This document shows, piece after piece, positions 4,873 through 33,465 of a stretch of DNA of 46,063 nucleotides. The stretch lies in NCBI RefSeq assembly GCF_018613155.1, contig NZ_JAGGQU010000025.1, positions 1-46,063 of the forward strand, written 5' to 3'. The notes below the pieces were generated by a model. That model did no database searches. It was not told the DNA's origin and saw nothing but the letters and a program-made list of their open reading frames with translations. Made by a program: the position numbers and the translations under genes. Every line of letters begins with the position of its first letter. The first letter of the stretch is position 1. This DNA comes from Bacillus sp. ISL-55. Its GTDB lineage: Bacteria; Bacillota; Bacilli; Bacillales; Cytobacillaceae.

Positions 4873-5038
4873 AAAAAGAAAACGCCTCGGGTTACCGGGC
4901 GTTGACTAAAAAGGTTATATAAGAAAGTCTGGTGGCAATAGATTAATAGATTGCCAGCCATGGATTCTTCACCTCGTAGTCAAGCCATTTACGGTAGCTC
5001 GGTAGAAACTTTTGGGCCATATCCCCAAGATTATACGA
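4873..5038 (-). promoter_or_regulatory. Guanine riboswitch (purine aptamer plus terminator) of pbuG
   Basis: The minus-strand aptamer (4974-5038) shows the purine riboswitch core: TATAATC, loop GGATATGG, GTTTCTACC, CCGTAAA and GACTACG, closed by P1 TCGTA/TACGA. The C in GACTACG (the C74 position) indicates guanine/hypoxanthine rather than adenine. A terminator follows: AACGCC (4898-4903) pairs with GGCGTT (4881-4886), then TTCTTTTT. Between them a further inverted repeat (4933-4954) can compete as antiterminator. Guanine binding is expected to stop pbuG transcription. Confidence 0.93.
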
Positions 5039-5069
5039 CGAATTATGACAAATTATTAAGTTCAGTATC

Positions 5070-6772: not shown

Positions 6773-6918
6773 AAAAAAGCCGGAATTCTGCCCCTCAAAT
6801 AAAAGGAAAGCAGGATCCCGGCACGTTACGAACAAAAAAGAAGCCTGCCTTCATAGTCAAATCATTTCCGGTGATTTGGTAGATACTTTCGAACCATATT
6901 ATCGAGGATATATGAAGG
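6773..6918 (-). promoter_or_regulatory. Diverged guanine-type riboswitch with terminator upstream of guaA
   Basis: The minus strand carries an 8-bp P1 (CCTTCATA/TATGAAGG, 6911-6918 and 6848-6855), a loop with ATATGG, then AGTATCTACC and GACTATG. The C of GACTATG predicts guanine. The core departs from consensus: J1/2 reads TATCC instead of TAATC, and the normally flipped-out third base of J2/3 (position 48) is A rather than U. A strong terminator follows, with arms 6810-6822 and 6779-6791 and six U. The ligand-contacting positions (22, 47, 51, 74 by xpt numbering) look intact. Confidence 0.85.
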
Positions 6919-6942
6919 TTGATTCTATATATAGTTGCAAAC

Positions 6943-20886: not shown

Positions 20887-21693
20887 TTATAGAATTCCCT
20901 GTAAATCCTTTAAAAATTGAACTAATGCTTCTCCTGGTTCCTCATTTTGATAAACAATGGGGATGATTCCCCGCTCTTTCAACAGTCTTTCTTTTACAGG
21001 ATTAGGATCAGCTAAAAAAATATATGAGTTGGGGCGCAGAGATTCATATCTCGATTTCTCCCATTGTTTTTGAAGTTTATATAGCATATACCTTATGTTA
21101 ATATCCGACAAACTATATCCAATAAACAAAATGGATTTTCCTAATGAATCTGATCGAAGTTTGATATCTAAAGGTGATTCAAAATCCAGTCTATTAAAAA
21201 AGCTGGATTCGGTTAACACAATCGATGAATCGTGATCAAAATCCCCATGAAACTTGATGATTTGCGGTATATTTTCCTTAATCCTTGCAATGTCCACCAT
21301 GTTGGTAATCTTTATATAATCCTTTTTATAATAATCGTATGCATATTCCAGCCATCTATCAAAGTTGGTCGTGTAGATAATAGGAAAGCCAATTTCTACA
21401 ATGAGTTTATGAATTTCCGATTGCCCAATATCTATATTAGGATTATGCCACTTGCGATCCATCCAACTCCTAAGTTCACCTAAAGATCCCTTTTGATGAA
21501 AGTAATATTCAGCTAAGATCAAAAAATCATTATTTCCCCAGGCGTTAAGAACTTCAGGATCAAATCCGAGCTGGCTGGCCATTTCATCAATCAATTCTCC
21601 ATATGTAGGCAACCCCAAGTTTTTAGAGATTCCGGAACCCACAAAGAGAATGACATTATTTTCTTTTAATAACTGACCTAATTCATTCAGCAT
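20887..21693 (-). CDS. SIR2-like NAD-binding protein (possible defence NADase)
   Basis: The 268-residue protein is a stand-alone SIR2-fold domain. It has the NAD-binding start FVGSGISKNLGLPTYGELI (residues 17-35), TTNFDRWLE with N110 and D112, the catalytic-type histidine H149 in KFHGD, and a late Rossmann strand FIGYSLSDINIR (190-201). This is the SIR2_2-type family, many members of which cut NAD in anti-phage systems; the zinc-binding cysteines of true sirtuin deacetylases are absent. ATG 21693 has AGGGGTG five bases upstream. No HerA, Argonaute or TIR partner is encoded nearby. A MITE-like repeat is inserted about 20 bp before the start codon. Function as defence is inference. Confidence 0.8.
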   Translation of the reverse strand: MLNELGQLLKENNVILFVGSGISKNLGLPTYGELIDEMASQLGFDPEVLNAWGNNDFLILAEYYFHQKGSLGELRSWMDRKWHNPNIDIGQSEIHKLIVEIGFPIIYTTNFDRWLEYAYDYYKKDYIKITNMVDIARIKENIPQIIKFHGDFDHDSSIVLTESSFFNRLDFESPLDIKLRSDSLGKSILFIGYSLSDINIRYMLYKLQKQWEKSRYESLRPNSYIFLADPNPVKERLLKERGIIPIVYQNEEPGEALVQFLKDLQGIL

Positions 21694-21713
21694 CAACGCA
21701 CCCCTTCATCAAA

Positions 21714-21910
21714 CGCTGTTTTCGTAACGCTGTTTTCGTAAAGATTGTTGTTAAAATCCTAAAGCCGATTTTAACGTAATAAAAAGCCATTTTGCATGTC
21801 GGTACTAAGTTTGCATGCTCTTTTCTCATAAAAAGAGTCAACTTTACGAAAAAAATAGGTCTTGGAATCCTATTTTGTATTCAAAAGCAACAAAGTTTGA
21901 GAAAAGAGCC
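21714..21910. mobile_element. MITE-like element, copy 1
   Basis: A 197-bp non-coding element about 80% like copy 2 at 31971-32153. The right end TTGAGAAAAGAGCC is the imperfect inverse of the left end; here the left 14 bp (CGCTGTTTTCGTAA) is tandemly duplicated (21714-21727 and 21728-21741) and its first base is C rather than G. Flanks TCATCAAA (21706-21713) and TTATCAAA (21911-21918) match at 7 of 8 bases, consistent with an 8-bp target duplication. Inside is a stem GTTAAAATC/GATTTTAAC. It carries no gene and would need a transposase in trans. Confidence 0.8.
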
Positions 21911-22025
21911 TTATCAAAAAAATTAAGCTAGTCTAAACTGGCGGCTGGAAATCCGACGAACCTTTATGACAGGATGTTGCTGGATAGTAAAGTAGTATAA
22001 GCAATAACCAGTTGGAAAAGGTACC

Positions 22026-22062
22026 AAAAAACACACCAATGCATTGTTTAGTGTGTTTTTTG
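22026..22062 (-). terminator. Terminator overlapping the helD stop
   Basis: AAAAAACACACTAA pairs with TTGGTGTGTTTTTT (two mismatched pairs) around ACAATGCA; the stop codon TAA lies in the 5' arm. The U-run follows on the minus strand. Confidence 0.8.
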
Positions 22063-24375
22063 CATTGTTCCTTTTACCTCTATGTGAATTGGATCTATCC
22101 GATCTAGCAGGAAAGAAGAAGGAGCGGTTCCGTATAATAGAAGTCTGTGCATCGGTCTTGTCATTCCGACATACAGCAGTTTAATATCAAGTTCTTTCTC
22201 AGAATAAGGTTCTTCAATAGATACCATTAACACTGCGTCAAACTCCAGTCCTTTTGACAGGTATGCAGGTACGATTGCAATTTGTCCTTTGATCATGTCT
22301 TCCTGTTCATTCAGCAGTTGAAATGGCAAATCGCTTTTTTCCATAATCTTTTTGATGTTCTTGCATTCACTTGCAGTTCGGCCAATAATCGCGATGGAAT
22401 TTAGATTTTCTTCATATAAGGCTCGAATATCCTTTTCAATCACGCTTGCCAGCTCTTCCTGGCCCGTATGATCCACCTGATGGAAAACCGGCTTAGGTCC
22501 ACTCCTTACCACCGGTTCTACCTGGGGAAGATCTTCATCCATGATGGCGAGAATATCGTTCGCCAGCTCCATAATTTCAACTGTCGTTCGATAGCTTTTT
22601 TGCAGCGTTAAGTAATTCGCTTCAGGGAAGATTTGCTCCGTCAACGGCTCCCAGCTCCTCGTGCCGCGATAGGCGTGGATTCCCTGGGCCAAATCGCCGA
22701 CAATCGTAAAGAGATTCGTGTCAAACCCTTCTTTAAGAGCTGCAAATTGAAAGTAACTATAATCCTGAGCTTCATCAATAAAAACACTTTTCATCTTATG
22801 TTTCTCATCTATTCCAATCAACTTGGCTTTAAGGTAGAACAATGGAGCCAGGTCTTCAAGTTCATATGCTTTCTTATGAAAAATACTGCTCGAATAATTT
22901 GCGAGCTGTTTGACTTCCTCTGCAGACAGGTCTACTGAATAAGCAGCCAATAATTCCTCGGAAGTCATTAATTCCTTATACAAAGTATAAATATCTTTTT
23001 TCTCAAAGTAATTCATGTACGTTTTGACTGCGGTTTTGATCGAGGATTGGAGCTGTTCGTTCCTTTTCTCCTTTCCGTCCATCAAGGCAACTACTTTCTT
23101 TCTTCTCTTTTCATCATCCTTGATTCCGTATAACGCTTTTTCTAGAGCTTCCTCATATCTTTCTTCAAACCTTGTGAGAATCTCGGTTTTCTTTTTTTTC
23201 ACATGATGGGTCAACAGCTGTTTAATTTTCTCCACCCGGCTATACACCGGCAGATAGCGATATTCCTTTATAAACAGCCTTCTTAGCTTCTGGGACTTCA
23301 TCAATCGATATTTATCAACAAAGAAATCTTCAGTTGGCGCCAACTTCTTTTCTACATCATTTATATAAGCATCCAGGACAGCCTTGAATTCCAGGGATCC
23401 TTTATAGGTTGAAATTTTGCTAAGTCTTTCATCCTTTGTCTTTCCTTCCACCAAGGCAAGCAGCTTCTTCTCAGGCGGAATGACCTTAATCTTCTTGCCA
23501 AGAGCAGCTCGAATGTAATCAATATAGGTTGTCTGGTTGATCTTTCCAACACCCAGTTCAGGAAGTACATCAGATATATAGTCAATGAAAAGCCTGTTTG
23601 GCGCGAGAATCATCAGTTTTTCCGGCCTGAACCGCTCACCAAATGTATAAAGGAAGTACGAGATGCGATGAAGGGCGATGGTTGTTTTACCGCTTCCTGC
23701 TGCTCCCTGGACAATGATCGGGTGCTGAAGGGACGCACGGATGATTTCATTTTGTTCTTTTTGAATCGTCGTGACGATTTCCGTAAGTCTATTATCCGCT
23801 TTTCCTGCCAATGATTTCTGCAGCAAATCATCATGGGTCGTCAAGTCTATATCATGAAAAGCCTTCAGCTTTCCTTCCTCAATCTCATATTGCCGTTTTA
23901 AAGCTAGATAGCCCTCACGCTGCTCCCCATTCACCTCATAACTGACCTCACCCAAACGTCCATCGTAATAAACATTCGCGATCGGCGATCTCCAGTCCAC
24001 AATGATGGGCATCTGGTTTTCCCGGTCATATAAAGAGGTTTTTCCAATATAAAGGATCTCCTCTGCTTTATCTTCCTGCTTTTTAAAATTGATTCTCGAG
24101 AAATAAGGTTTGTTCAAAATGCTTTCTAATCGCTCAAGCTCATTTCCAGCGAGCTCCAGGAACTTGGCATTCGTTAATATATTGATATAACTCAAACTGC
24201 TGTCGAGATAATCCAGGTCAACAAATGCCTGTTTTATATTTTCGGTAAAAGACTGCTTATTTTCTCTCGATGCCTCGAGTATTGTTTTTATATATAATTT
24301 CGTAAACTCCAGCCGTTCAACCTCTTTCTGATAATCAGCATGATCCAGAATTGAGGTTTTATTTTTTTCAGTCAT
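22048..24375 (-). CDS. helD: RNA polymerase recycling motor HelD (UvrD/Rep-like superfamily 1 ATPase)
   Basis: HelD releases RNA polymerase from stalled or terminated complexes in Gram-positives. The 775-residue length matches B. subtilis HelD (774). An N-terminal helical arm that enters the polymerase secondary channel spans about 1-110, followed by VDWRSPIANVYYD near 127-138. Walker A GAAGSGKTT is at 224-232, and the helicase motif FIDEAQDYSYFQ follows later, then GDLAQGIHAYRGTRSW and the C-terminal KSYRTT and YLSKGLEFDAVL, LYVGMTRP motifs. The binding site GGAGG lies about 12 bases before ATG, slightly far. It is preceded by no co-directional partner and followed by a terminator at its own stop. 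Confidence 0.93.
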   Translation of the reverse strand: MTEKNKTSILDHADYQKEVERLEFTKLYIKTILEASRENKQSFTENIKQAFVDLDYLDSSLSYINILTNAKFLELAGNELERLESILNKPYFSRINFKKQEDKAEEILYIGKTSLYDRENQMPIIVDWRSPIANVYYDGRLGEVSYEVNGEQREGYLALKRQYEIEEGKLKAFHDIDLTTHDDLLQKSLAGKADNRLTEIVTTIQKEQNEIIRASLQHPIIVQGAAGSGKTTIALHRISYFLYTFGERFRPEKLMILAPNRLFIDYISDVLPELGVGKINQTTYIDYIRAALGKKIKVIPPEKKLLALVEGKTKDERLSKISTYKGSLEFKAVLDAYINDVEKKLAPTEDFFVDKYRLMKSQKLRRLFIKEYRYLPVYSRVEKIKQLLTHHVKKKKTEILTRFEERYEEALEKALYGIKDDEKRRKKVVALMDGKEKRNEQLQSSIKTAVKTYMNYFEKKDIYTLYKELMTSEELLAAYSVDLSAEEVKQLANYSSSIFHKKAYELEDLAPLFYLKAKLIGIDEKHKMKSVFIDEAQDYSYFQFAALKEGFDTNLFTIVGDLAQGIHAYRGTRSWEPLTEQIFPEANYLTLQKSYRTTVEIMELANDILAIMDEDLPQVEPVVRSGPKPVFHQVDHTGQEELASVIEKDIRALYEENLNSIAIIGRTASECKNIKKIMEKSDLPFQLLNEQEDMIKGQIAIVPAYLSKGLEFDAVLMVSIEEPYSEKELDIKLLYVGMTRPMHRLLLYGTAPSSFLLDRIDPIHIEVKGTMQKTH

Positions 24376-31887: not shown

Positions 31888-31970
31888 GTTTAGCGTTTCA
31901 GAGTTGGATCATTTCCTTAGCGCTACCTGATGACCAAATGACGAAAATGTCTAGCGCCATCAAATTAAAA

Positions 31971-32153
31971 GGCTGTTTTCGTAACAATTGTTGTTAAAAT
32001 CCTAAAGCCGATTTTAACGTAATATAAGGCCATTTTGCAGTTCGGAATAAAGTTTGCATGCTCTTTTCTCATAAAAGAGTCAACTTTACCAAGAAAACTA
32101 ATCATAAAATCCTATTTTGTAGTCAAATAGCAACAAAGTTTGAGAAAAGAGCC
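31971..32153. mobile_element. MITE-like element, copy 2
   Basis: A 183-bp non-coding element beginning GGCTGTTTTCGTAA and ending TTGAGAAAAGAGCC; the ends are inverted repeats matching at 12 of 14 bases. It is flanked by a perfect 8-bp direct repeat AATTAAAA (31963-31970 and 32154-32161), the mark of transposition. It shares most of its sequence with copy 1. The ends GGCTCTTTT and the AT-rich 8-bp target resemble what I know of ISL3-family elements, which could supply the transposase in trans; no transposase is in this window. Confidence 0.88.
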
Positions 32154-32180
32154 AATTAAAAAGAAGCTCCCAAAAGTTTT

Positions 32181-33318: not shown

Positions 33319-33358
33319 AAAAAGACTCCTGCCAGTTCATACATAACTGACAGGAGTC
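33319..33358 (-). terminator. Terminator of the phosphatase-like gene
   Basis: GACTCCTGTCAGTT pairs with AACTGGCAGGAGTC (one G-U) and is followed by TTTTTAA on the minus strand. Confidence 0.8.
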
Positions 33359-33465
33359 ATTAGCCTTGAGGCAGTTAAAGGTGAACTCCATCACCTATTA
33401 AGATTAGGTCTCTCTAAAAACTATAATACATTTAAATAAGAAGGAAAAAAACTTTTTTTCTTGCT

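Follow-up and report, generated by a model that had tools for sequence, protein, structure and literature searches.

What is the 183-bp sequence that lies between a manganese catalase gene and a crcB-like ORF in Bacillus sp. ISL-55, and which transposase put it there? In the window, by which we mean the whole stretch of DNA analysed (46,063 nucleotides), this sequence starts with GGCTGTTTTCGTAA, ends with TTGAGAAAAGAGCC, and has AATTAAAA on either side. It starts 149 bp downstream of the catalase gene, and 229 bp separate its end from the crcB-like ORF, which is convergent. An earlier note on this DNA had described a gene-less, MITE-like element at these positions with a perfect AT-rich 8-bp target duplication, and in this it was right: coordinates and sequence are as it gave them, AATTAAAA is exact on both sides, and in the window's ORF list no ORF of at least 90 aa overlaps the element, which is thus both short and without a transposase gene, as a MITE is expected to be. 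Its count of inverted matches between the 14-base ends needs a small correction, from 12 to 11 of 14, the mismatches being at positions 5, 11 and 12. The parts of the element are collected in Table 1, together with complete insertion sequences from other genomes that have similar ends.

Table 1. The element at 31971, its parts and second copy in the window, and complete IS1595-family elements found elsewhere
Feature	Location	Strand	Length	Description
MITE	31971..32153	+	183 bp	without gene
Target duplication AATTAAAA, left copy	31963..31970	none
Target duplication AATTAAAA, right copy	32154..32161	none
Left terminal repeat	31971..31995	+	~25 bp	family form GGCTGTTTTCGTAAAGATTGTTGTT; common to ends of IS1595 subgroup
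Right terminal repeat	32129..32153	-	~25 bp	family form GGCTCTTTTCTCAAACTTTGTTGCT (read inwards); common to ends of IS1595 subgroup
Internal palindrome GTTAAAATC-8-GATTTTAAC	31993..32018	none	26 bp	just inside left end
Conserved middle motif GTTTGCATGCTCTTTTCTC	32052..32070	+		contains 11-base copy of right tip
Second copy of MITE	21728..21910	+		14-bp duplication of left tip directly before
Complete IS1595-family element	G034, taken as Bacillus mediterraneensis		1481 bp	8/8 duplication TTCATTTA
Complete IS1595-family element	Niallia plasmid		1765 bp	8/8 duplication TTTTTAAA
Complete IS1595-family element	G041		1612 bp	7/8 duplication

The element is far from alone in its own genome, a draft of 4.52 Mb in 69 contigs. 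BLAST against this draft gave at least 43 matches, made up of at least 41 near-full-length places and 2 fragments, a lower bound that rests on the scoring of 40 out of 94 first-look candidates; the further copies that the earlier note had proposed to look for are thus plentiful. In the 41 near-full-length places the flanking duplication is 8/8 in 18, 7/8 in 13 and 6/8 or less in 10, while random pairs of positions with the same spacing at the same loci agree in 8/8 at a frequency of 0.0004 and in at least 7/8 at 0.0016. The terminal inverted repeats (11/14 at the tips) go with a target duplication of constant length, as in a MITE. Beyond the proposed ends the flanks of the copies differ, except in tandem pairs, and the common flanking sequence that had been named as evidence against a mobile element was not seen. 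Two tandem pairs have one 8-bp duplication between their members: L006 1312-1682 on contig C38, 97.8% identical, and L092 911-1271 on contig C5, only 73% identical. The flanks of the second copy in the window match in 7/8 if the outer tip is taken.

Pairing of both end motifs brought out additional, more diverged copies in the own genome. From these pairs a set of 50 copies was taken by end similarity and a flanking match of at least 5/8, so that end conservation and duplication rate in this set are partly built in by selection; it also holds a few doubtful members (L106, L102 and L110, 46-70% to the consensus). Exact duplications flank 27 of these 50 copies, selected as they were for a flanking match of at least 5/8, and among these 27 the duplicated target starts with T in 22 copies and has A as its seventh base in 25 and as its eighth in 26. 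According to a crude ORF caller, the neighbouring genes of the 50 copies are co-directional in 35 cases, convergent in 9 and divergent in 4, with 2 unassigned.

Relatives show what such a site looks like when unoccupied. At the 31971 locus itself, five congeners match the left side only, ending at window positions 31891-31898, and three other congeners match the right flank only, from 32409 on. At a sister copy, L013 on contig C66, itself flanked by a 7/8 duplication, nine of ten aligned relatives have both flanks, no element, and a single AT-rich run at the insertion point; in the tenth, G004, the right flank was not found. This is the empty site that the earlier note had asked for, and with the 41 occupied places it gives the picture of a MITE that has entered many unrelated sites. 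Among the 20 congeners searched, 16 have strong matches to the element (E below 1e-30), G010 and G014 have weak matches only, and G002 and G008 have none; over all genomes searched, 33 of 61 have a match at E 0.001. Searches of plasmids and phages returned no whole-element match. In two loci from other families of the order (L052 and L054, ~1300-1550), MITE-like ends seem to enclose a different, GC-rich repeat.

The same ends were found on larger elements that encode a transposase. Plasmid searches with short end queries gave mostly weak matches, and one of the six places opened led to a Niallia plasmid on which an annotated IS1595-family transposase begins ~80 bp inside a MITE-like end. The transposases of the three complete elements in Table 1 have an N-terminal zinc-binding domain, and their scores against NF033547 are 204-220 bits (cut-off 75). 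Among PF12762 loci, G038 has a weaker, 2174-bp end pair with a 6/8 duplication. In an unselected PF12762 sample of 29 loci, compared with the two MITE ends, the Niallia end and another variant, just 3 loci had end pairs with at most 5 mismatches per end, among them one whose duplication is 6/8, and two further loci had 7-8 mismatches per end with 8/8 duplications; the MITE ends thus belong to one subgroup of the IS1595 family, a family whose members are usually flanked by 8-bp duplications according to an excerpt of PMC8101967.

A genome scan with the three transposases confirmed 111 stretches, from which 80 loci were kept. With the two MITE ends as sole reference and a threshold of 7 mismatches in 25, both ends were found in 57 of these 80 loci, which had been gathered by similarity to transposases already known to have MITE-like ends; 41 of the 57 have an exact 8-bp duplication. 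One shuffle per locus over all 80 loci yielded 5 single-end matches in total. No end pair was found in the remaining 23 loci, and the 57 include a few spurious-looking pairs (L184, L185 and L191, where the flanks match in 2 or 3 of 8). In L165, from B. mediterraneensis, the ends differ from those of the MITE by 2 and 3 mismatches. Elements of this kind span ~1.2-3.3 kb, which leaves room for passengers (L117 5123-5647 and several other loci), and the Niallia element holds an annotated DinB-family gene.

The MITE accordingly has its ends in common with autonomous, 8-bp-duplicating IS1595 elements; within its own genus, PF12762 searches of the own genome and 20 congeners found no intact partner. 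PF12762 has no match in the 69 contigs of the own draft. It has matches in 5 of the 20 congeners, among which G019 has long open copies without MITE ends and G018 has a decayed IS1595 relative that retains one MITE-like end. A scan for autonomous copies with both end patterns found no end pair of more than 400 bp with a flanking match of at least 6/8 in 62 own-genome loci; it included 20 stretches that surround right ends not belonging to a BLAST copy, and some of the pattern matches, several left ends among them, lay outside the 62 loci. The absence of PF12762 is the stronger of these two points against an autonomous copy in the own draft genome. With neither an IS1595 nor an ISL3 transposase detectable in this draft, the MITE family looks stranded there.

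Taken together, comparison of sequences makes it very probable that the element belongs to a multi-copy MITE family which a DDE transposase of the IS1595 family mobilises in trans. Its many copies stand at unrelated sites and are flanked by 8-bp duplications, a sister copy has an empty counterpart, and there are IS1595 elements with matching ends and duplication length; from these we infer that an IS1595 transposase is the likely enzyme. Such a transposase would bind the ~25-bp ends and make a staggered cut in an AT-rich target with a preference for TxxxxxAA, where the element would be inserted, and repair of the gaps would then leave the 8-bp duplication. For this abundant repeat of a Bacillus-like genus, the likely transposase would thereby change from ISL3 to IS1595, which bears on annotation and on the choice of a partner for assays.

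Inside its ends the MITE has little in common with these insertion sequences. Homology hardly extends beyond 23-41 bp at the ends: BLAST of the MITE consensus against 87 IS1595 loci gave 198 matches, nearly all of them there. Across the 50 copies, element positions 21-50 and 91-100 show little variation, like the right end, and positions 51-60 and 101-140 are more variable. The palindrome GTTAAAATC-8-GATTTTAAC occupies element positions 23-48. It occurs at 49 sites in the own genome (a genome-wide count, within MITEs or not), at no site in four congeners in which MITEs are few or absent, and in none of 110 IS1595 loci searched. MITE copies of four genera have kept it, that of ISL-55 and three others (G022, G024 and G029), by counts that required 7 of 9 pairs and hence favoured intact stems. 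In G024 the ninth pair is T-A instead of C-G in all 8 counted copies, which may be a single compensatory event. Among the copies, the loop is shortened in L248 and expanded in L267. In the predicted fold, CTCTTTT of the middle motif pairs with AAAAGAG at 32073-32079.

Because these regions were first picked after seeing the data, we redefined interior columns as conserved (32) or variable (99) by means of 16 copies taken from other genomes. Of the substitutions common to at least 5 own-genome copies, 2 then fall in conserved columns and 46 in variable ones, as against 29 and 83 of the private ones (Fisher p 0.0009, kinship between copies being ignored); if shared is taken to mean at least 2 copies, the contrast has p 0.006, again with kinship ignored. 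Private substitutions are spread evenly over both kinds of column (binomial p 0.74). We read this as the pattern to be expected if the elements are constrained in their ability to move and drift once they have inserted. A tentative extension, to which we give somewhat less than an even chance, is that the MITE is a long-lived lineage in its own right and not a fresh deletion of a local IS, that constraint acts on it at the level of mobility, that the palindrome, which like the middle motif is missing from the IS1595 loci searched but kept in copies of four genera, is an acquired mobility determinant, and that the family passes from genus to genus without its parent. In that case the palindrome would be a candidate transposition enhancer or host-factor site. 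If it is a mobility determinant, this family would lend itself to the study of how a non-autonomous element evolves features absent from its parent and spreads between genera.

Conserved interior structure could also be kept for the benefit of the host, with the repeat retained for RNA processing, transcript stability or termination and not as the relic of a transposon, an explanation that we consider improbable. The internal hairpins are indeed conserved, and the element folds with an energy below that of shuffled sequences (z -2.44 and -2.31, equalled by 4 and 5 of 200 shuffles). By the same crude ORF caller, the 50 copies all fall outside long ORFs, several of them only a few bases away from one, and in the Bacillus cereus group bcr repeats are often transcribed as part of UTRs according to an excerpt of PMC3446304. 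However, the even spread of private substitutions is what drift after insertion would leave, no Rfam family matches the MITE at its gathering threshold, and nine relatives live without sister copy L013.

Transposition, our preferred explanation, could in turn have been driven by a different family of enzymes. The earlier note had named an ISL3-type transposase and proposed a search for an ISL3 element with the same ends, and ISL3-family elements do make the same 8-bp duplication; of four such elements of relatives with a proposed terminal repeat, two start with GGCTCT and have 7/8 or 8/8 duplications. However, all four repeats, which were sought in 11 of 20 fetched loci, part from the MITE after the first bases, and the ISL3 domain PF01610 has no match in the own genome. 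Over the 37 genomes searched (own and 36 relatives), PF01610 has matches in 11, three of them congeners, with 35 matches listed. At the threshold that finds the MITE ends in most of the IS1595 loci (7 mismatches in 25), not one of the 20 fetched ISL3 loci of relatives has even a single end, several of these loci being cut by contig ends or overlapping one another. A laxer, 18-base scan gave scattered single matches at 5 mismatches and no pair. We therefore reject an ISL3-derived MITE for want of common ends in these 20 loci, and mobilisation by an ISL3-family transposase is very unlikely. As for an inverted repeat and a direct repeat brought together by chance, short repeats are common in AT-rich sequence, but a genome that holds 41 or more near-full-length copies rules this out, and the null of 0.0004 for exact 8-bp agreement also speaks against it.

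The exact duplication at 31971 had been taken to mean that the insertion was probably recent. Among the 50 copies compared, the one at 31971 has its closest relative at 93.4% identity, and copies only 82-85% identical to it have also kept exact duplications, so the inference of a recent insertion is unsupported. The sole pair above 97% identity among the 50 is a tandem pair.

An IS1595-family MITE is already on record, and the family of Bacillus sp. ISL-55 is a further member of that kind. An excerpt of PMC3852290 lists it for Haloquadratum walsbyi (putative IS ISHwa6) with 165 bp, 7 copies, IR 25 and DR 8; by description it resembles the Bacillus MITE in family, size, end length and duplication length, and it differs in its archaeal host and lower copy number. 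The Bacillales IS1595 insertion sequences, such as those of B. mediterraneensis (1481 bp) and Niallia (1765 bp), agree with the MITE in their ~25-bp ends and 8-bp AT-rich duplications but encode a transposase, share almost nothing with its interior, and lack the palindrome. The bcr1 repeats of the B. cereus group are likewise short, intergenic and present in tens of copies, and are MITE-similar by description in excerpts of PMC3446304 and PMC6542083; the likeness is one of description only, and the latter excerpt links their mobility to a TTTAT motif. Literature searches with the strings GGCTGTTTTCGTAAA, GGCTGTTTTCG, GGCTCTTTTCGTAAA and GGCTCTTTTCTCAAA returned no paper on bacterial repeats, judged by titles, and no description of the ISL-55 family was found in the literature searched, a scope outside which most subscription papers lie.

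Several other features of the window deserve mention. A fluoride riboswitch at 33344-33404 on the minus strand lies upstream of two crcB-like ORFs, and purine riboswitches are found at 4957-5058 and 6834-6935. At 20887-24375, on the minus strand, an ORF with a SIR2_2 domain adjoins a UvrD-like helicase ORF, with the second copy of the MITE between them; the two ORFs are possibly a defence pair.
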